From Pseudomonadota bacterium (GTDB lineage Bacteria; Pseudomonadota; Alphaproteobacteria; SHVZ01): 64,000 nt of DNA. Of the stretch, positions 4,393 to 47,358 are shown piece by piece. The translations under genes and the position numbers were made by a program. Every line of letters begins with the position of its first letter. Positions within the stretch are counted from its first letter, which is position 1. The notes beneath the pieces are model-generated. The model was not told the DNA's origin. It saw only the letters and a program-made list of their open reading frames with translations, and did not search any database. The DNA is taken from assembly GCA_016195085.1 (NCBI GenBank), contig JACQAG010000060.1, positions 1 through 64,000 on the forward strand, read 5' to 3'.

Positions 4393-5649
4393 TCAATCCG
4401 ATGCGGACGGCGTGATGGTGCCCGGCTGCGGGGCGACTTTGGCGCCGGGGCGGGCGCGTACGAGGCCGTTGATGATGATCATGTCGCTCGCCTCGAGCCC
4501 GCTACGGATCACGCGCAGCCCCTCGCTGGTCGGCCCCGGCCGTACGATCTTCGGTACCACCGTGCCGTCGTCCTTGACCGTCATCACGATCTTGCGGGAC
4601 TGGTCGGTCACCACCGCGCTGTCCGGGACCAGCGTGGCCTGGTACGGCTCGGAGCCCGGTATCCGGATGCGGCCGAATTGCCCGGGCGTGATGAAGAGGT
4701 CGCGGTTGGGGAAGGTCGCCCGTGCGCGGATCGTGCCGGAGCTGCGGTCGACCTGATTGTCGAGGAAGTCGAGACGCCCCTCGAGGGTCCATTTGGTCTC
4801 GTCGAAGAGATGCGCGAAGACGCCGAGTGCGCCGTCGCGTGCCGACTTGAACTTGCCGGTGGCCGCGGCGCGCTGATAGGCGAGCAGATCGGCTTCGCTC
4901 ATGTCGAAGGTGAAGTAGATCGGATCGAGCGCCACGATGGTGGTGAGCAATGTCGTCGGTCCACCGGCGCCGCCGACGACGAGATTGCCGATGCTGACCT
5001 CGTGTCGGCTGGCGCGGCCGCCGACGGGCGCGGTGATGCGGGTGAAGTCGAGATCGAGCTGCGCCGAGCGGATGGCTGCCTTGGCCGTCTCCAGGACAGC
5101 CGCCGCGACTCGCTGCTCCTGTACGCGCTGGTCGTAGACGCTGCCGGCGACGAAGTCGCGTTCGCGCAGCTGGCCGGCGCGAGCCAGCTCCCGGGTCGCC
5201 AGCTCGAGGCGGGCATTGGCTTGGGCGAGCTGCGCTTGTACGGAGCTGAGCGCAATCTCGAAGGGCCGGGGATCGATGATGAACAGGAGATCGCCCTTGT
5301 TGACGATCTGTCCGTCCCGGAAGTTGATCGATTGCAGATAGCCGCTGACGCGCGCCCGCATCTCCACATACTCGACGGCGGCGAATTGACCGGTGAATTC
5401 GTCCCACTCGACGATCTCGCGCTGGAGCGGATGGCTCACGGTCACCGGCAAGGGCGCCGGTGCGGCCCGGGCGGCGCTGCTTTCTCCGCGGCTCCGGCCA
5501 AAGAACCAGAACGCAGCGAGAGCGGCGACGAGCAACAGCCCGACGGCCACAAGCAAGCCGCGAGGGCGCCCGGTCCCTGGCTCCACCTTTGACGAAGGCG
5601 GCGTGCCCGCGGGTGTGGCGGGGGATGGAGGCGTGACGGTCTCGGGCAT
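4393..5649 (-). CDS. RND efflux periplasmic adaptor subunit (AcrA/HlyD family)
   Basis: This membrane fusion protein joins the inner-membrane pump to an outer-membrane channel. I place the start at 5649, where the messenger carries GGGGGAG a few bases ahead of the ATG. The open frame runs 40 codons further upstream without a comparable site. The 418-residue product has a proline-rich cytoplasmic N-terminus, one membrane anchor (GLLLVAVGLLLVAALAAFWFF-like region, about residues 30-50), then lipoyl halves (VEMRARVSGYLQ and later FTRITAPVGGR), a coiled-coil hairpin rich in Gln/Ala/Leu/Arg between them, and a beta-barrel with FPNRDLFITPGQFGRIR. No lipobox cysteine is seen, so anchoring is by the helix. 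It sits directly upstream of its pump and surely forms an operon with it. Confidence 0.93.
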   Translation of the reverse strand: MPETVTPPSPATPAGTPPSSKVEPGTGRPRGLLVAVGLLLVAALAAFWFFGRSRGESSAARAAPAPLPVTVSHPLQREIVEWDEFTGQFAAVEYVEMRARVSGYLQSINFRDGQIVNKGDLLFIIDPRPFEIALSSVQAQLAQANARLELATRELARAGQLRERDFVAGSVYDQRVQEQRVAAAVLETAKAAIRSAQLDLDFTRITAPVGGRASRHEVSIGNLVVGGAGGPTTLLTTIVALDPIYFTFDMSEADLLAYQRAAATGKFKSARDGALGVFAHLFDETKWTLEGRLDFLDNQVDRSSGTIRARATFPNRDLFITPGQFGRIRIPGSEPYQATLVPDSAVVTDQSRKIVMTVKDDGTVVPKIVRPGPTSEGLRVIRSGLEASDMIIINGLVRARPGAKVAPQPGTITPSASD

Positions 5650-29159: not shown

Positions 29160-30005
29160 TCAAGTGAAGCCGTGGCGCAACACCAACCAAATTTTTTGCC
29201 AGCTCGGCAGCCCGACCCGGAGTTCCGGCTGGCGCCAATCCGCCTCGACGAGCCGGTCGAGAATGGCCGCGTACATGGCGCCCATCAGGGCTGCCGGGCG
29301 CATCGCCCGTCGCGGGCAGCGGGCCATGGCGCCGGCCGCCGCGGCGAAGTGGCCGCGGGCGATCCCGGCGAGGTCGCGGCCCACCAGCGGCAGGTTCGGA
29401 TGCCGGATGGCGGCGGACGCCGGCCCTGGCGGCACGCCATGGCGCTGCAGCAGCTCCATCGGCAAGTAGAGCCGGCCGCGGCTCGCATCCTCGGCAAGGT
29501 CACGGAGGATATTGGTCAGCTGGAGGGCCCGACCGAGCGATTCGGCGGCCGCGACCGCCACCGGCCCGTCGGCCCCGAACACGCGCACCGAGAGCTTTCC
29601 CACCGCGCTCGCGACCCGGGCGCAATAGAGATCGAGCGTGGCAAGGGAAGGGGCTGTGATGTCTTCGCGCGCGTCCATCTCCATGCCGTCGATCACCGCC
29701 TCGAAATCGGCTTTGAGGAGCCCGTAGCGTTGCAGCGGTCCCAACAGCGCGATCGCCACCTCGCGGACGGGTTCGCCGGCATACAGGCGGTCGAGCTCGC
29801 GGCGCCAATCGGCCAGCAGCGCCAGCTTGCGCGAAGGCGGTTCGTCGCCGTCGGCAATGTCGTCGACCTCGCGGCAAAAAGCGTAGATGGCGAACATCCC
29901 GGCCCGCCGCTCCGCCGGCAAGAGGCGCATGGCCCAAAAAAACGAGGTACCGGCGGCCTGGACGCGTTCGGCGATGCGGGCTTCGATCTCGGCAAGCGCC
30001 GTCAT
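29160..30005 (-). CDS. hpnD: Presqualene diphosphate synthase HpnD
   Basis: HpnD (281 residues) condenses two farnesyl diphosphates to presqualene diphosphate. In bacteria this is followed by HpnC and HpnE, which are not encoded in the window. The aspartate-rich motifs are FCREVDDIADGDE and NILRDLAEDASRGRLYLP, and FFWAMRLLPAERRAGMFAIYAFCR is the typical start. The ATG at 30005 overlaps the stop of hpnB (ATGA). A longer open frame reaching to 30530 in the same frame encodes arginine-rich sequence antisense to nothing known and is not part of the gene. The protein could also be HpnC, but the second-motif context fits HpnD better. Confidence 0.9.
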   Translation of the reverse strand: MTALAEIEARIAERVQAAGTSFFWAMRLLPAERRAGMFAIYAFCREVDDIADGDEPPSRKLALLADWRRELDRLYAGEPVREVAIALLGPLQRYGLLKADFEAVIDGMEMDAREDITAPSLATLDLYCARVASAVGKLSVRVFGADGPVAVAAAESLGRALQLTNILRDLAEDASRGRLYLPMELLQRHGVPPGPASAAIRHPNLPLVGRDLAGIARGHFAAAAGAMARCPRRAMRPAALMGAMYAAILDRLVEADWRQPELRVGLPSWQKIWLVLRHGFT

Positions 30006-31168
30006 GTCCCGGCACCGGCTTGGATGCGGCCTTTCCATTGGCCGCCGCGGCCGAGACGGTGCTGGAGCGCCGATTGCAGCGTGGCGGCCAGATAGAAGAG
30101 CGCGATCGCCGGCAGCGCCAACGCCCAGATGAAGGAGACCCGGTAGTAGCTGAGCGTCGGAAGTAAGGAGAGCGTCATCAACGCCCAGGCGCCCCAGCCC
30201 AATCCGCCGGCAAGCCCGGCTCCATCCACGAAGAAGGAGCCCAGCGCCAGGGCTGGGGGGCCCAGGAACACGAGCGCCGTGCCGACTATGGTGAGCGCCA
30301 GCAGCACCGGGGAATGCTTGAGCTGGGTATAGGCCGAGCGTGCGACCATGCGGGCAATGTCGCCGAAGCCGCGATAGACGCGCAAGCTTACCGTCTCCGA
30401 GGCGAGGCCGAGCCAGATCGATCCGCCCGCCTTGATCGCGCGGGCCAGCGCGCAATCGTCGATGAGCGCCCCTCGGATGCTGGCGATGCCACCGATGCGC
30501 CCCAGGGCCCGGCGGCGGACGAGCATGCATCCTCCGGCCGCAGCCGCCGTCTTGCGAGCGCTGCGGTTTACCCAGCGGAAGGGATAAATCATTTGAAAGA
30601 AGAACACGAAGCCGGGGATCAGCGCACGCTCGGCGAAGGTTTCACACTGGAGCCGCACCATGAGCGAGACCAGATCGAGACTGTCCCGCTCGGCGCGGGC
30701 GACGAGCTCCGCCAGGTTTTCCTGCGCATGCACCACATCGGCATCGGTCAACAGCGCATAGCCGGCAGCTTCTGCCGTTGTTTCGGCGCGCTCGAGGCCT
30801 TCGGCGACGGCCCATAGCTTGCCGGTCCAGCCTTGGGGCAGGGGGCGGGCGGAAATGACCTCGAGGCGATCGCTCTGGCCGGCATCGGCGGCAGCCCGGC
30901 GCGCGAGCGCTGCCGTCTCGTCCTCGCTGTGATCGTCGACGACGATCACCCGAAAGCGCCCGGGGTAGTCCTGCGTCAGCAGCGAATGGACGGCGCGCCC
31001 GATGGAATAGGCCTCATTGCGCGCCGGCACCACGGCGACGACTTCCGGCCATTGCGGCGGTGGCGGGCATGCCGGCGCCACCCGTTCCCGCCAGAACCCG
31101 CCGCGCGCGGCCAGAAGATAGACCCAGAACGCCAGTGCCAGCGCGCCGATGGCGAGGAGGACGCTCAT
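30002..31168 (-). CDS. hpnB: Hopanoid glycosyltransferase HpnB
   Basis: HpnB (388 residues) is a family 2 glycosyltransferase tied to hopanoid clusters. An N-terminal helix (LAIGALALAFWVYLLAA) is followed by VVAVVPARNEAYSIGRAVHSLL, the nucleotide-sugar fold, and VIVVDDHSEDET. LLTDADVVHA holds the DxD-type motif. Three or four membrane helices close the protein. The chemical role is not well established. It lies between hpnA and hpnD with four-base overlaps at both ends (ATGA), so the three are read as one unit. Confidence 0.93.
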   Translation of the reverse strand: MSVLLAIGALALAFWVYLLAARGGFWRERVAPACPPPPQWPEVVAVVPARNEAYSIGRAVHSLLTQDYPGRFRVIVVDDHSEDETAALARRAAADAGQSDRLEVISARPLPQGWTGKLWAVAEGLERAETTAEAAGYALLTDADVVHAQENLAELVARAERDSLDLVSLMVRLQCETFAERALIPGFVFFFQMIYPFRWVNRSARKTAAAAGGCMLVRRRALGRIGGIASIRGALIDDCALARAIKAGGSIWLGLASETVSLRVYRGFGDIARMVARSAYTQLKHSPVLLALTIVGTALVFLGPPALALGSFFVDGAGLAGGLGWGAWALMTLSLLPTLSYYRVSFIWALALPAIALFYLAATLQSALQHRLGRGGQWKGRIQAGAGT

Positions 31169-32166
31169 CTGAGGTAACCCGCCTCGCGGAACCAGGCGAT
31201 CGCGTCGGCGAGGCCTTGACGCGCCGGTCTGGGCGCATAACCCAGCTCGTCCACGGCCTTGGCGGAGGAGAAGAACATGCGCTTCTTTGCCATGCGGAGA
31301 CCGTCGAGGGTGACGAAGGGCTCGCGCCCGCTGATGCGCGCCCAAGCCTCGGCGACGACCGCGATCGGAAAGAGCGTCGGCCGCGGCAGGCGCAAGAACG
31401 GCGGTCGGCCGCCGGTCAGCCGGGCAATCTCGCCCAGCATCTCCGCCAGCGTCAGATTGTCTCCGCCCAGAACGTAGCGCTCGCCGACACGGCCCCGGGC
31501 GAAGGCAAGGAGATGGCCCTGGGCGACATCGTCGACGTGAACGAGATTGAGGCCGGTGTCGACATAGGCGGGCATCCGCCCCTTCGCCGCCTCGAGGAGG
31601 ACCCGGCCGGTCGGCGTCGGCCTCGCGTCGCGCGGGCCGACCGGGGTCGAGGGATTGACGATGACGCAGGAGAGCCCCTGCTCCTGGACCAGCGCGCGGA
31701 CGGCCTCCTCGGCGAGATACTTCGAGCGTTTGTAAGGGCCGATCATGTCGGCAAGCTCGACCGGCGTCGTCTCGTCGGCGGGACGGCCTGCGGGATCGAG
31801 GCCGAGAGTGGCGACGCTGCTGGTGTAAACCACCCGCTCGACGCCGGCCTCGAGGGCGGCCTGCATCAAGGCCCGGGTACCCTCGACATTGGCGCGGTAC
31901 ATCGCCTGCGGGTCGGGGACCCACAGGCGATAATCGGCGGCGACGTGAAAGAGCGCGGCGCAGCCGGCGACCGCGCGCCGGAGCGAGCCGTGATCCTCGA
32001 GCGCGCCTTCGACGGCTTCGAGCGGCAGCCCGGCGATGTTGCGCCGGTCCCGGCCCGGTCTGAGCAGGACCCGCACATTCCTGCCTTCGGCGATGAGAGC
32101 CCGGATCACGGCCGCGCCAACGAAGCCGGAAGCCCCGGTGACCAGGTATGGTCGGGACGCGGTCAT
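31165..32166 (-). CDS. hpnA: Hopanoid-associated sugar epimerase HpnA
   Basis: HpnA (333 residues) is an extended short-chain dehydrogenase of the NDP-sugar epimerase type. YLVTGASGFVGAAVIRAL is the NAD-binding glycine motif. YTSSVATLG and a YKRSKYLAEE-like segment (GPYKRSKYLAE) supply the active-site Ser/Thr, Tyr and Lys. The natural substrate is unknown, and it is named from its constant position in hopanoid operons. It overlaps hpnB and hpnK by four bases each (ATGA), a tightly coupled block. Confidence 0.93.
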   Translation of the reverse strand: MTASRPYLVTGASGFVGAAVIRALIAEGRNVRVLLRPGRDRRNIAGLPLEAVEGALEDHGSLRRAVAGCAALFHVAADYRLWVPDPQAMYRANVEGTRALMQAALEAGVERVVYTSSVATLGLDPAGRPADETTPVELADMIGPYKRSKYLAEEAVRALVQEQGLSCVIVNPSTPVGPRDARPTPTGRVLLEAAKGRMPAYVDTGLNLVHVDDVAQGHLLAFARGRVGERYVLGGDNLTLAEMLGEIARLTGGRPPFLRLPRPTLFPIAVVAEAWARISGREPFVTLDGLRMAKKRMFFSSAKAVDELGYAPRPARQGLADAIAWFREAGYLR

Positions 32167-32996
32167 GCCCCGAGATCGCGGAAAGCGATCGGCGTGAGGC
32201 CGCGCTGGGCCAGCGCCGCCTTCACCCGCGGGCTGGTGAGCGCCTCGAGCTCGCCTTCATAGGCATAGCCGGGATTGTCGCGGAGGAGCTCGGGCGTCCG
32301 CCGCGTCGCCGGATGGAAATACATCTCGCAGACGCCGTCCGGCAGGCGCTCGAGGAGCGCCAAGACTTGCGCTTCCGCCATGGCGCCGGTGTCGCTCAAG
32401 CCCAGGACTGCGTCATTGCTCTTGATGCCCCGGCGCGCCAATCTGGGCTTGAGCAGCCTGACCCAGGCACGAAGCGGCATCCCAGCCAGGGGCGCCGTCG
32501 GTGCGGCCGGTTCATAGGGCATCCTCAAGGCCTTCAGCCCGAAGTCCCGTCCGATGGCGAGAACGAGCCCGAGCACGGTCGGGTGCATGTGCATGTGGCA
32601 ATGGGCGTTTACGTGGTCGAGCGCCAGCCCGGTGGCGCGGAACGCCTCGAACTGCGCCCGGATCTCCAGGGCCATCTGCCGGCGCGCGCTCGGGCGGAAG
32701 AAGAAGTTGATCCCGGCGCGAACCAAGTCCGAGGAGAAGCGGCCATCCGTGCCGACGAGGGCGGGCACGCGTTCGGCCGGCAGCACTGGGCGGCCGTTGA
32801 CGAGCGTCAGATGCAGGCCGACCGCAAGACCGGGCAATCGACGCGCTCGGCGGACCGCATCCTCGGCTTCCGAGGCACCCACCATCAGGCTCGCCGCCGA
32901 CAATATGCCGTCGCGGTGCGCGATCTCGATCGCCTCGTTGACCGGGAGCGCCAACCCGAAATCATCGCCGGTGACGATCAGGTGCCGTCCGCGCAT
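32163..32996 (-). CDS. hpnK: Hopanoid deacetylase HpnK (YdjC/ChbG family)
   Basis: HpnK (277 residues) belongs to the YdjC/ChbG carbohydrate deacetylase family. It deacetylates the N-acetylglucosaminyl hopanoid made by HpnI, giving glucosaminyl bacteriohopanetetrol. IVTGDDFGLALPVNEAIE is the family N-terminal metal motif, and DHVNAHCHMHMHPTV supplies metal histidines. It lies three bases downstream of copD and overlaps hpnA in an ATGA, so it links the copper genes to the hopanoid operon. HpnI, its functional partner, is 11 kb away in a separate operon. Confidence 0.92.
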   Translation of the reverse strand: MRGRHLIVTGDDFGLALPVNEAIEIAHRDGILSAASLMVGASEAEDAVRRARRLPGLAVGLHLTLVNGRPVLPAERVPALVGTDGRFSSDLVRAGINFFFRPSARRQMALEIRAQFEAFRATGLALDHVNAHCHMHMHPTVLGLVLAIGRDFGLKALRMPYEPAAPTAPLAGMPLRAWVRLLKPRLARRGIKSNDAVLGLSDTGAMAEAQVLALLERLPDGVCEMYFHPATRRTPELLRDNPGYAYEGELEALTSPRVKAALAQRGLTPIAFRDLGA

Positions 32997-32999
32997 GGC

Positions 33000-34649
33000 T
33001 CAGCTCTCCCGATAGAGCAGCAAGGAGAGCCCGACCGCGACGAAGCAGATCGGCCATGCCCAACCGGCGATCCGGCTCTCTGGCTCGGGCAGTCTGAGCT
33101 CGAGCCATCGCGTCCAGCCGGCGGCGATGCCGAATAAGGCGAGCGGCACATGGGTCATCTCGATCAGCAATTCCTGGCGCACATTGCCGAGACTGTGGGA
33201 ATGGGTCAGCAGGAGGCCGCCGCCGAAGGCGGTCAAGAGCGGGAAGACCAGAGCCGAGCCCCGGCGCTTCAGCCGGCCGGTGCGCACGGCCCATTCGAAG
33301 AGCGCGAAGGGCACGAGCAAGAGCACAAAGAGGCGATGCTGGACCACCTCGGGATCGCGCAGGCTCTCCCAAAAACCGATGTCGCCGAGCGGCCAGGCCT
33401 CCGGATCCGAGCGCACCAGGAGGAAGAGCGCTAGAGCGAGGAAGAGCAGCGGCCAATGGCGTGCCCAGGCTGCCAGCCCGGAGCGTTCAACCAGCGCCAG
33501 GATGCCGATGGCGAGCACGAGAATGCCGGCCCAGTGATGATTGTATTCCGACCAGGCGATGTCGAAGCCGGAGATGGGCGGCGGCAAGCCGGCACCGGGC
33601 ACGAAGGCGCGGGCCGCGGTCTCGGCCCGGGCGGCTTCGGCATCGAGCTTCGCTTGCAGGGCCGGGATCGCCAGATCCTCGTGGCTCGGACTCTCGAACC
33701 TGGGCCAATGCGGGACGTTGCGCTCGACGATCTCCGCCCAGGACACACGGTCGAAAGGCAGGTCGGTCGCCGGCGGCAGGGAGGTGAGCGACGCGGCGGC
33801 GAACAGCACGGTCAGGCCGACGCCGAGCTCGACCTCGGCGAAGCGGCGTAGCCTGACGACGGGCGTGGTCGGATCCCGCCGGAGCCGCTCGACCGCACGG
33901 AAATTCGCGAAGCCGAGTCCGAGCAAGCCAAGGAACATGAGCACCTTGGTCGAGGTCATGACGCCGTAGGCGGTGCCGTAGAGCGCACTGAAGTCGGCGA
34001 CATAGACCCACGCCATCGCGGTCCCGGCGCCGACGATGAGCGCCACCGCCGCCGTCGACATGAGCGAGAAGCGCTTGCCGACGAGGCGCCAGGCCCCACC
34101 GTCCCGCGCCTGCGCCATGGCCAGGAGAAAATAGGGCATGCCGCCGATCCAGATGGCGGCGCCGATCTGGTGCAGGCTGGTCAAGACCATGAGCAGCGGC
34201 CGGTCGTCGAGCCGGCTCGCGGCGTGGCTGGTGGCAACCGAGCCGACGATGACGATGCAAGCGAGGGAGACGAGCAGCCAGCGCGGCGCCGGAGAATTGC
34301 CGCTGAGCCTGAGCGCCATCGCCAGGCTTGCCGCCACGATCGCTGCATCGGCGAGCGCGAAATCGGCGCCCGCTGCCGCCCCGAGCCCGATTCCGGCGGT
34401 GTCGGCCAGCACCAGGATCTGGATCGTGGCAGCGGTCGCTACGAGCAAAGCCAGCGCCAAGCTGCTGCAAGCAAGCAGCCGCCGGCTGCGCGCAGCGATC
34501 GTGGCGCCGGACCCGCCCAGCCGGCCGGCGAGCGGCTCGGCCAGGATCAGAAGAAAGGCGACGCCGCCCAGCGTCAGCGACTGCGCGGCCAGCACCGAGC
34601 CGTGCAGCAGCACCGTCAGATAGCCGAAGACGTCGAGGAGCAGGCTCAT
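33000..34649 (-). CDS. copD: Copper resistance protein CopD-like, integral membrane
   Basis: The 549-residue protein is predominantly membrane-embedded, with many hydrophobic helices, and is a CopD-domain protein thought to move copper across the inner membrane with CopC. The CopD core is seen in SLHQIGAAIWIGGMPYFLLAM and VALIVGAGTAMAWVYVADF. The C-terminal half (KRRGSALVFPLLTAFGGGLLLTHSHSLGN) is histidine-containing and resembles the extended CopD type. The upstream copC gene is four bases away and hpnK three bases downstream. I infer one transcription unit, copC-copD-hpnK-A-B-D. Confidence 0.88.
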   Translation of the reverse strand: MSLLLDVFGYLTVLLHGSVLAAQSLTLGGVAFLLILAEPLAGRLGGSGATIAARSRRLLACSSLALALLVATAATIQILVLADTAGIGLGAAAGADFALADAAIVAASLAMALRLSGNSPAPRWLLVSLACIVIVGSVATSHAASRLDDRPLLMVLTSLHQIGAAIWIGGMPYFLLAMAQARDGGAWRLVGKRFSLMSTAAVALIVGAGTAMAWVYVADFSALYGTAYGVMTSTKVLMFLGLLGLGFANFRAVERLRRDPTTPVVRLRRFAEVELGVGLTVLFAAASLTSLPPATDLPFDRVSWAEIVERNVPHWPRFESPSHEDLAIPALQAKLDAEAARAETAARAFVPGAGLPPPISGFDIAWSEYNHHWAGILVLAIGILALVERSGLAAWARHWPLLFLALALFLLVRSDPEAWPLGDIGFWESLRDPEVVQHRLFVLLLVPFALFEWAVRTGRLKRRGSALVFPLLTAFGGGLLLTHSHSLGNVRQELLIEMTHVPLALFGIAAGWTRWLELRLPEPESRIAGWAWPICFVAVGLSLLLYRES

Positions 34650-44309: not shown

Positions 44310-45320
44310 TCAGGATTGGGCGAGGCCGGCTCTGCGCTCGAGCTCGGCATAGAGCGCATCTGGAACGGAAATACCATAGGCCTCGGCGCGTCGGCGCAGT
44401 GCCAGACGTCGCTGTCCGGGGAGCCGCGTGCCCGGCTCGGCGAGGATGGCGGAGAACAGCGCCTCGGCGCGTTCCAAGGCGTGGCTGCCGCCGAAGGCGT
44501 TGGGATCGATCGCAATGAGGAACTGGCCGACGCGCGGCGGCGCGCCTTTGGTGTCGAAGAAGCTGGACGCTTCGTAGCCGAAATTGCTGCCGGTCAGGGC
44601 GACGGCGAGGAGCTCGACCATGAGGACCAGCGCCGCACCCTTGGCATCGCCCATGGGCAGCATGGCGCCAGCCAGCGCCGCCTTGGCATCGGTCGTCGGC
44701 TGGCCCGCTTCATCGAGCGCCCAGCCCTCGGGGATGGGATCGCCCTTTTGCGCGGCGATCATGATCTTGCCGCGCGCCACCTTGCTCAGCGACAGATCGA
44801 TGACGAGCGGCGGCACCGACCGGCGTGGCCAGGCGAAGCCAATCGGGTTGGTGCCAAAGAGTGGTTTCGATCCGCCCCAGGGCGCAATCGCGGCCGGCGA
44901 GTTGCCGAAAATGCAGCCGACCAGCCCGGCGGCGGCGATTGGTTCCACCGTATGGCCGGCAACGCCAAAATGGTGCGAGTTGGCAATGGCGAGCGCAGCC
45001 AGGCCCTGGGCGCGGGCAAGCGGCAGCAAGTCCTGGAGCCCGATCCGAATCGCCGGGTAGGCGAAGCCGGTCGCTGCATCCACCCTGAGGCAAGCCGCCG
45101 CGACCCGTTCCACCATCGGCCGGGCGAAGCCGTCGACTTTGCCGGCGAGCGCCTGGTCGGCATAGGCCGGCAAGCGCGAGAGCCCGTGCGAGGCGAGACC
45201 GTCCGCTTCGGCGGCGATCAGGGCCTCGGCGACGACGCGGGCGTTGCCGGCTTCCGTCCTGGCGCGCGTGAGGACGGCAGTCGCCAGCTCGAGGAGGTGG
45301 GAGGCTGCATGCTGAGCCAT
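44310..45320 (-). CDS. Ldh-family NAD(P)-dependent 2-hydroxyacid dehydrogenase
   Basis: The 336-residue protein belongs to the malate/L-lactate/sulfolactate dehydrogenase (Ldh_2) family, not the classical Rossmann LDH. NSHHFGVAGHTVEP contains the catalytic histidine, GTNPIGFAWP the substrate loop, and DAKAALAGAMLPMGDAKGAALVLMVELLA the NAD-binding region. It oxidises or reduces a 2-hydroxy acid such as malate, lactate, ureidoglycolate or (R)-sulfolactate. Its place 87 bases downstream of the UxaA-family large subunit in one operon favours a 2-hydroxy acid connected with that lyase. A GC-rich hairpin lies in the gap. Confidence 0.88.
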   Translation of the reverse strand: MAQHAASHLLELATAVLTRARTEAGNARVVAEALIAAEADGLASHGLSRLPAYADQALAGKVDGFARPMVERVAAACLRVDAATGFAYPAIRIGLQDLLPLARAQGLAALAIANSHHFGVAGHTVEPIAAAGLVGCIFGNSPAAIAPWGGSKPLFGTNPIGFAWPRRSVPPLVIDLSLSKVARGKIMIAAQKGDPIPEGWALDEAGQPTTDAKAALAGAMLPMGDAKGAALVLMVELLAVALTGSNFGYEASSFFDTKGAPPRVGQFLIAIDPNAFGGSHALERAEALFSAILAEPGTRLPGQRRLALRRRAEAYGISVPDALYAELERRAGLAQS

Positions 45321-45407: not shown

Positions 45408-46577
45408 TCAGGCGCTGCGATACAGCTTGGTCATGGTGTATTCGCGATGCCCGAGCGCCTCGGCTGCGGTGAGCCGGCCGTTACAGGTCCTGAGCGTGAC
45501 CTCGATCAAGGCATCGCCGGCCTGATCGTAGGTCATTTCGCGGCGCAATATCCCCGAGACGTCCAGGTCGACATGCTCGCCCATGGTCCTCACCGTCCTC
45601 GGATTGCCGGTGAGCTTCACCACCGGCAGGATCGGATTGCCGATGACATTGCCTTGGCCGGTGGGAAACAGGTGCACGACAAAACCCGCGGCCGCCTGCA
45701 AGGTCACGCATTCGGCGGCGGCGCTCGAAGTATCCATGAAATAGAGGCCGGGGCCCTTTTTGGGGGCCTCGGCCTCCTTGAGCACGTCGATGAACTTGGT
45801 CTTCCGGCCGATCTTCTCGAGATTGCCGAAGGCTTTCTCCTCGATCGTCGTCAATCCGCCGGCGATATTGCCCTTGGTCGGCTGGCTCTCCGACAGATCA
45901 TCGGTCTTGAACTCGTTGATCACGTCGTTGTAGGCCGACCAAGTTTTCATGAACTTTTGCGCCACGGCTTTGTTAATGGCGCGTTGGGCGCAAACATGCT
46001 CGGCGCCGGTGATCTCCGATGTCTCGCCGAAGCACGCGGTCACGCCCATAGGTTCCAGCTTGTCGATGAGGTTGCCGACCGTAGGGTTGGCGGCGATGCC
46101 CGACGTGGTATCGCTCTCGCCGCACTTCACCGCCACCCAGAGATCGCGGACATCGCACTCTTCGCGCCCGAGCTCGCTCGCCCATTGCAGGAACTCCTTG
46201 GCCTTGCGGCTGGCGCTCGCAATGGTGTTGAGGTCGCCGTTGCGCTCGATGGAGAAGCCCTCCACGGGCTTTCCAGACTTGGCAATGCCCTCGACGACCC
46301 GGCTTGTCCAGCCGGGTTCGATGCCGATCACCACCACCGCCGCGACATTGGGGTTGGTGCCGGTACCGATCAGCGTACGAAAGTGTAGATCCAGATCTTC
46401 GCCGAACTGCAATCGGCCATAAGAATGTGGGAGGGCGAGCGTACCCTTGATGTTGTTGGCGACCGCCTCGCATGCCGCGTTGGACAGGTCGTCAACCGGC
46501 AGGATTATGACGTGATTCCGTACCCCAATCCTGCCGTTGGCTCGCCGATATCCCATAAACCGAAAGCGATCCGACAT
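45408..46577 (-). CDS. UxaA-family hydro-lyase/sulfo-lyase large subunit
   Basis: The 389-residue protein is the large (C-terminal) part of the altronate dehydratase/galactarate dehydratase/sulfolactate sulfo-lyase family. The start motif [24 protein letters not shown] is typical. [19 protein letters not shown] (metal-site segment), [12 protein letters not shown]-like ([15 protein letters not shown]) and [16 protein letters not shown] are the family motifs. The C-terminal [13 protein letters not shown] is usual. It needs the small SAF-domain subunit encoded at 47038-47358. Several substrates are possible; the neighbouring Ldh-family gene makes a sulfolactate-type lyase (SuyB-like) worth considering, but altronate or other sugar acids remain possible. 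The start is at 46577. Confidence 0.88.
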
Positions 46578-46682
46578 CGCCCGTGAGCGCGTCGGGGAGG
46601 AACCCGATGCGCGCCCACGCGACTGGCCGCCTCTGGCCGCACCTGCAGCCTTGGCTGCCCTCATCGGCTGGAATCCCGCTGG

Positions 46683-47036
46683 CTACTTCTTCTTGCGGGA
46701 CTTCTTCGCCTTCTTCCGCTTGGCGGTCTTGCGCTTCGCGGTCTTCTTCGCGGCCTTGCGCTTGGGCTTCGCCCGCTTGGTGGCTTTCCGCGCCGCCGCT
46801 GGCTTCGCCTTGCGCTTGGACTTCATGGTCTTGCGCGCAACGGCCGCCGCAAGCGCCTTGGTCTTCCGCTTCTTGCTCTTCTTGGATCGCTTGGCGGTCT
46901 TCTTCGCCGTGGCTTTCTTTCCGGTCTTGCGCTTCGCCGGCTTCGCCCGCTTGGTGGCCTTCTTCGCCGCCGCTGGCTTCGCCCGCTTGATCTTCGACTT
47001 CTTCGACTTGGACTTGCTAGGAGACTTCCCCGCCAT
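46683..47036 (-). CDS. Highly basic, Lys/Arg/Ala-rich histone-like protein
   Basis: The 117-residue product has about 47 lysines and 13 arginines and no aspartate or glutamate (my count), with alternating AKKATKRAKP- and AKRKTAKRKK-like repeats. It resembles the C-terminal tail of histone H1 and bacterial H1-like proteins and should bind DNA or RNA without a folded core. It is a real reading frame: the ATG is at 47036, one base after the stop of the small UxaA-type subunit, and GAGGTGG lies just before it. It sits between the two subunits of an enzyme, 105 bases before the large-subunit start. I do not recognise a named family. Confidence 0.8.
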   Translation of the reverse strand: MAGKSPSKSKSKKSKIKRAKPAAAKKATKRAKPAKRKTGKKATAKKTAKRSKKSKKRKTKALAAAVARKTMKSKRKAKPAAARKATKRAKPKRKAAKKTAKRKTAKRKKAKKSRKKK

Positions 47037-47037
47037 G

Positions 47038-47358
47038 TCACCACCTCTTGGTCTTGACGTTGTGGACGTGTACGTGGCCGCCCTTGTGGATGGCGGCCAC
47101 AGCTTTACCGATGTCGTGGCCATACTTGATGATCGTTTCACCGATCTTGATGTTATTGAGTGCAAGTTTGTGCCCAAGGGGTATGTCGTCGACGGCTTTC
47201 ACGGCGATGGTCGAATTCGTATCCATCACCCAGCCCGAGAGGGTCTTCCCCTTGCGAGCGTCTTCGACGACCACAACGCCGACGGTGTCCTCTGGATTGT
47301 GCACCAAGAACTGCGGCGTCACCCTCACCCCTCCCGAGGTATCTCGCCGTGCTTCCAT
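47038..47358 (-). CDS. UxaA-family small subunit with SAF domain
   Basis: The 106-residue protein is the small N-terminal SAF-type domain of the UxaA/altronate-dehydratase family. The segments FLVHNPEDTVGVVVVEDARKG and DDIPLGHKLALNNIKIGETIIKYGHDIGKA are characteristic. It binds the substrate side together with the large subunit. In SuyAB-type enzymes this corresponds to SuyA. It heads the operon, upstream of the basic protein and the large subunit. The ATG at 47358 gives the expected size. Confidence 0.9.
   Translation of the reverse strand: MEARRDTSGGVRVTPQFLVHNPEDTVGVVVVEDARKGKTLSGWVMDTNSTIAVKAVDDIPLGHKLALNNIKIGETIIKYGHDIGKAVAAIHKGGHVHVHNVKTKRW

Follow-up and report, generated by a model that had tools for sequence, protein, structure and literature searches.

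Background

Lysine-rich proteins and protein tails that resemble histone H1 are an already known kind of bacterial sequence. In Pseudomonas, the larger proteins AlgP and PhaF carry H1-like tails, which consist of strongly positive, disordered-type KPAA repeats rich in Lys, Ala and Pro; such tails both bind DNA and organise granules of polyphosphate, the AlgP tail being needed for even spacing of the granules and its fragments binding DNA (PMC9239181). Chlamydial Hc2 (HctB, PF07382) and other H1-like proteins stand alone, are Lys-rich and have no globular domain. In P. aeruginosa, polyphosphate was bound by Lys-rich stretches in which nine of 20 residues are Lys, and the lysine polyphosphate modification targets EngA and SrmB, which are translation-related proteins, both carry stretches of this density (PMC12077175). 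Short ORFs between operon genes are represented by mgtQ, in which the downstream gene is dependent on translation reaching it and which relies on ribosome-destabilising acidic residues (PMC8092293). Finally, two-subunit lyases of the UxaA/GarD type (altronate/galactarate dehydratase superfamily) are encoded by an SAF small-subunit gene and a GD_AH large-subunit gene.

Here we analyse a Lys/Arg-rich ORF located in a 64,000-nucleotide stretch of alphaproteobacterial DNA (hereafter, the window) and its counterparts in related genomes. The ORF lies between the SAF and GD_AH genes of a UxaA/GarD-type lyase; elsewhere in our sample these genes are adjacent or the large subunit carries a fused tail, whereas the separate ORF occurs only in the window's family. 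Its product shares with the AlgP and PhaF tails a Lys/Ala/Pro-rich, disordered-type composition with strongly positive repeats, but it is a free ORF, it holds no partner domain and its repeats are AKK/KRAKP-like. It resembles the Hc2-type proteins in standing alone, in being Lys-rich and acid-poor and in lacking a recognisable folded domain, but it sits in a catabolic operon. In contrast to mgtQ, it is acid-free and its positive charge is conserved. Its lysine density exceeds that of the EngA and SrmB stretches, polyphosphate binding being a prediction in the present case. The origin of the ORF, in an unusual place, can be traced; the function that we propose for it is a reasoned guess.

Results

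Gene arrangement of the lyase operon

The genes run on the minus strand of the window from the SAF small subunit through the Lys/Arg-rich ORF and the large subunit to an Ldh2-type dehydrogenase (Table 1). Profile searches matched the small subunit to the N-terminal part of TIGR03248 (E 6e-10) and to the SAF domain of altronate hydrolase in the PDB (3k3s, E 8e-10). The large subunit matched galactarate dehydratase (6u7l, E 5e-38), and the presence in it of the GD_AH second and C-terminal domains (PF04295, PF20629) gives the flanking genes the full make-up of a two-subunit UxaA/GarD-type enzyme. The scores of the lyase are far under the galactarate dehydratase equivalog cut-off, which leaves altronate, galactarate, sulfolactate or another compound as candidate substrates. 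An Ldh2-family gene also adjoins the lyase in three relatives (G002, G003 and G004). No promoter- or terminator-like sites were found on the minus strand of the small-to-large gene interval, and Rfam yielded no known RNA element or family around the lyase operon.

The sequence-only reading, whose span (46683-47358) takes in the small subunit as well as the Lys-rich ORF, had described a 117-residue protein with about 60 Lys/Arg and no Asp/Glu, placed between the small and large subunits of a UxaA-family lyase, with its ATG one base past the small-subunit stop and a ribosome-binding site in place. Each of these statements agrees with the coordinates and counts given here.

Table 1. Features of the lyase operon in the window, with other loci referred to in the text
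Feature	Position	Strand	Remarks
Small (SAF) subunit, UxaA/GarD-type lyase	47038..47358	-	106 aa; C-terminus ...VKTKRW, stop TGA
Shine-Dalgarno AGGTGG, serving the Lys-rich ORF	47041..47046	-	Within the last two codons of the small subunit (Arg AGG, Trp TGG)
Lys/Arg-rich ORF	46683..47036	-	117 aa; ATG 1 nt past small-subunit TGA; stop TAG
Spacer, Lys-rich ORF TAG to first large-subunit ATG	46665..46682	-	18 nt, without Shine-Dalgarno
Large catalytic subunit	45408..46664	-	418 aa; PF20629 E 4e-84, PF04295 E 2e-34
Basic N-terminal extension of large subunit, specific to the window's family	46578-46664	-	Conserved core from 46577
Ldh2-family malate/L-lactate/sulfolactate-type dehydrogenase	44310..45320	-	PF02615 E 2e-100; next gene of the operon
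Cluster that we take to be hopanoid/squalene synthesis-like	29160-33000	-	Squalene synthase-like, glycosyltransferase, NAD-epimerase, YdjC-like
Tailed formyl-CoA transferase, L168-L173	G003:C378, G002:C8, G004:C97, G001:C150, G005:C71, G000:C26:223388		
Tailed Rid protein, L174-L177	G001:C227, G006:C2, G002:C17, G004:C155		

Composition of the Lys-rich ORF

The window ORF encodes 47 Lys and 13 Arg (51% of its residues), 27 Ala and no Asp or Glu, which amounts to a net charge of +60, and its product has no match in Pfam, NCBIfam or the PDB. In 20 dinucleotide shuffles of the window, the maximum Lys fraction among ORFs of at least 60 aa was 0.053-0.087; the observed fraction is 0.33 over the ATG-to-stop frame that holds the Lys-rich ORF and 0.40 over the ORF itself. 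It is also the sole stretch with at least 9 K, at least 12 K+R and at most one D/E per 30 aa in a 1.09 Mb sample of its own genome, a sample outside which falls the tail of that genome's formyl-CoA transferase, similar in composition. Given the shuffle values and this uniqueness, the ORF is real and gene-like and not a chance frame. A repeat search detected four imperfect copies of a 45-nt unit within it, two of them 93% identical, and duplication thus contributed to its length.

Conservation within and outside the family

The window's family comprises seven genomes in two genera, all of them fragmented assemblies. A Lys-rich, acid-free ORF of 30-44 aa was found at the same place in all five other genomes in which the junction is intact (G001-G005); in the seventh, G006, the sequence ends inside the small-subunit gene. 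The relatives' ORFs begin 2 nt past the small-subunit stop, as compared with 1 nt in the window, and have N-termini such as MAKKAKKSAKK... and MAAKKKAAKKSVKK.... Position and composition are therefore kept in six of six intact loci, while length ranges from 30 to 117 aa, and the ORF is not an accident of the window genome. The family ORFs hold 11-13 Lys per 20 residues and one to four KKK runs, and so reach the density of polyphosphate-binding stretches, about nine Lys or more in 20 residues together with Lys runs. An artefact of a single assembly was considered and is ruled out by the six separate genomes.

The positive charge of the six ORFs is preserved as well. No acidic codon occurs in them, alongside 146 Lys codons, though AAG to GAG is one transition; no single-step change of AAG to a Glu, Gln or Asn codon was seen, while synonymous AAA codons number five. 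For the second genus, pN was 0.15 versus a pS of 0.30, values taken from an ambiguous alignment of repetitive sequence.

In one relative (L120 / G005:C82) the large-subunit gene is frameshifted soon after its start (...FGADRNPISAP, then stop) and the Lys-rich ORF is intact; the frameshift is either an assembly error or decay.

Outside the family, the junction was readable in nearly all of 80 GTDB loci, and among these no separate Lys-rich ORF was found, the large subunit mostly beginning 1-30 nt past the small subunit. Across 385 genomes of the class, a pattern search matched the arrangement only in the window's family; this is a lower bound, since the pattern demands AAR-AAR near the start and misses the window locus itself. 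Adjacent subunits without the ORF in related genomes, which the sequence-only reading had named as part of what would count against it, are seen outside the family but at none of the six intact loci within it.

Ribosome-binding site and translation starts

Directly upstream of the ATG of the window ORF lies AGAGGTGG, whose duplex with the anti-Shine-Dalgarno sequence has an energy of -12.2 kcal/mol, beyond the 1% quantile of the background (-10.2). A strong Shine-Dalgarno sequence before the Lys-rich ORF is kept in all six intact family loci (-10.3 to -12.2 kcal/mol). At the large-subunit start of the same loci the energies are 0.6 to -4.1 kcal/mol and there is no Shine-Dalgarno sequence, the window value of -4.1 being near the background mean of -3.65. 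The distance from the ORF stop to the large-subunit ATG is 18-27 nt in six of six. From the strong site before the ORF and the lack of one before the large subunit we infer strongly that the ORF is translated; ribosomes probably reach the large subunit by reinitiation. We rejected stop-codon read-through to a fused protein as a device conserved among these loci: both TAG and TAA are used as stops, and in G002 and G004 the large subunit lies in a different frame from the ORF.

The Arg codon that contributes to the site varies with the spacing of the genes. It is AGG, yielding AGGTGG, in all 16 distinct loci whose next ATG is 1-2 nt past the stop, a count in which L202 is treated as the same organism as L024, and it is never AGG in the approximately 71 loci of longer spacing. 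A Fisher test of AGG against spacing gave 1e-18, or 6e-14 without the window family, with related sequences treated as independent and L202 and L024 entered apart. Because one AGG locus, L206, is placed in the other clade of the tree, the rule has been met at least twice. The AGG ribosome-binding site may in part be a legacy of the ancestral arrangement.

Origin of the ORF

In the nearest outgroup (L024/L202), the homologous ATG and the same Shine-Dalgarno site drive the large subunit, the N-terminus of which is MARKSSKPTFMGYRR (MARKSSK...). In the window's family, whose branch in the tree has moderate support (86), this site drives the Lys-rich ORF instead. Since the outgroup large subunit uses the very start at which the ORF begins, and that of the family begins downstream without a Shine-Dalgarno sequence, comparison of the start sites indicates that the ORF took over the ancestral start of the large subunit.

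In the simplest history, a basic N-terminus grew and a stop then set it apart. A short basic N-terminus of the large subunit, comparable to that of the outgroup, would have lengthened into a Lys/Ala-rich stretch; a new stop codon would have closed this stretch and made it a separate ORF; and the large subunit would have gained a new start 18-27 nt further along, to which ribosomes now come mainly by reinitiation. In four of the six family members, the large subunit still shares the reading frame of the ORF, with few codons and one or two stops between them. In L025 (Magnetovibrio sp. SP26, about 4815-5040) a 73-residue basic extension (20 K/R, 3 D/E) is fused to the large subunit and begins at the 2-nt spacing also seen for the separate ORF of the window's family, and L049, L056, L076 and L085 have shorter, MAKKSKKNGK-type tails fused to the large subunit. 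The relatives thus offer possible intermediates, namely a short basic N-terminus, a fused basic tail and a separate ORF; a fused intermediate was not seen within the window's own family.

The sequence-only reading had offered an insertion point as one account of the site. A mobile insertion is rejected: on reading the junctions we noted neither flanking repeats nor a foreign gene, and the ORF is present in all family members with an intact junction. The suggestion is nonetheless near the truth in that the ORF took over an existing start and would have grown there.

In seven further loci (L053, L062, L065, L066, L081 and L091 of Methylobacterium, and L063) the large subunit has a conserved, non-basic N-terminal extension of 40-42 residues (MFKEAAQLEHEIATPFVGGAPDQF...), so that the junction has gained extensions more than once.

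Basic tails on other proteins of the lineage

Similar tails on unrelated enzymes of the family came to light when dense AAG repeats were searched for. Formyl-CoA transferase (TIGR03253, 727 bits; cut-off 504) has, at its N-terminus, a Lys/Ala-rich tail of about 50-75 aa in six of the six family genomes with the gene, that of the window included. The tail is also present in two other families (G127 and G092), and the enzyme of outgroup G065 (L192) has an N-terminus without it. In four genomes of the second genus, the C-terminus of a Rid/YjgF-family protein carries a Lys/Ala tail (...AKKPAKKAKKKARRR) of about 40 aa, and the best match in the window genome (53%) is without a tail. The sequence-only reading had remarked that stand-alone genes are the usual source of H1-like tails; this is an unsafe guide in this lineage, in which they are fused to formyl-CoA transferase and Rid, just as those of AlgP and PhaF belong to larger proteins (PMC9239181). 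Such tails are a habit of the lineage, in which several unrelated metabolic enzymes bear them; a shared function does not follow.

Discussion

We give a probability of roughly 0.5 to the reading that the ORF encodes a real, translated, family-specific polybasic microprotein, derived from the ancestral large-subunit start, that acts as a detached polyanion-binding tail made with the lyase. As the ORF lies between the subunit genes and would pass ribosomes to the large subunit by reinitiation, its peptide should be made in step with both subunits. The peptide would act as a disordered, Lys-rich tail detached from the enzyme. Its ligand would be a polyanion, nucleic acid or polyphosphate being the most likely, and it would perhaps hold the lyase on that polyanion, as fused tails would do for other enzymes of the lineage. 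Composition and the literature together suggest polyanion binding and point weakly to a partner: the composition allows binding of nucleic acid, and equally of polyphosphate or other polyanions. Polyphosphate kinase is encoded in seven of seven family genomes, which is weak evidence, as the enzyme is common in bacteria. Which polyanion is bound, and whether the lyase is affected, is a matter of speculation. Electrostatic docking to an acidic enzyme is not favoured, the small subunit of the family being neutral to basic and the large one nearly neutral.

If the peptide is functional, it offers an example, open to testing, of a polybasic tail supplied in trans and made in step with its enzyme. 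The locus is a clear example of a new small gene that arises inside an operon by capturing the start of a gene already there.

A translational relay is the strongest rival. Its precedent is mgtQ, a short intercistronic ORF between mgtC and mgtB that controls the next gene (PMC8092293). The ORF would capture the ribosomes that leave the small subunit and hand them on, or slow them through its Lys-rich nascent chain, and so set the ratio of small to large subunit, the peptide being irrelevant or acting on its own ribosome only. The strong Shine-Dalgarno sequence before the ORF, the lack of one before the large subunit and the 18-27 nt from stop to ATG in all six loci speak for such a role, and if the ORF is only a relay, it shows how the coupling of two subunits is rewired through a third ORF. 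A pure relay, however, would have no need of an acid-free Lys-rich peptide, and here the charge is kept while the length varies fourfold; the region contains no known RNA family, and no relay role is evident for the similar tails of formyl-CoA transferase and Rid. We consider a purely cis-acting relay unlikely, and because tails are fused to unrelated enzymes as well, a function of the peptide is more likely.

An extension of the detached-tail reading, which we regard as decidedly unlikely at present, is that polybasic tails are a shared address that gathers catabolic enzymes on a common polyanionic scaffold, such as a polyphosphate granule or the nucleoid; the tail would be fused on formyl-CoA transferase and Rid and supplied to the lyase as a separate, translationally coupled peptide. 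A tail in trans that owes its existence to a stop codon within an N-terminal extension would then be a new way to give an enzyme a targeting element.

It seems improbable that the peptide is a histone-like DNA-binding protein whose target is the nucleoid or its own operon and which is tied to the enzyme by co-regulation alone. This comes close to the suggestion of the sequence-only reading that the protein may bind nucleic acid when the substrate is used. Lys-rich low-complexity stretches of prokaryotes are enriched in DNA-binding proteins (PMC6821194), the composition is H1-like and the ORF of one relative has a weak similarity to Hc2 (PF07382), which at 10.2 bits (E 0.8) is below the curated cut-off of 40; the window protein, however, gives no match to that profile and the ORFs stay under every family threshold. 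Moreover, in the window's family the ORF belongs in every case to the lyase operon, and a 30-residue version suffices in a relative.

Neutral expansion of AAG/GCC-type repeats without stops, open by chance in a tolerant intercistronic spot, agrees with the low-complexity repeats, the internal 45-nt copies, the strong length variation among relatives and the partial openness of other frames, but it is very improbable given that frame, start site, Shine-Dalgarno sequence and acid-free composition are kept in six genomes of two genera and that AAG has not stepped to Glu, Gln or Asn codons although synonymous AAA is present.

Lys-rich sequence in the lineage extends to a small exported-looking protein of both genera, with a signal-like N-terminus (...NAAYAQ...) and a Lys/Ala/Thr-rich C-terminus, at L138 (G000:C1:74646), L140 and L156.
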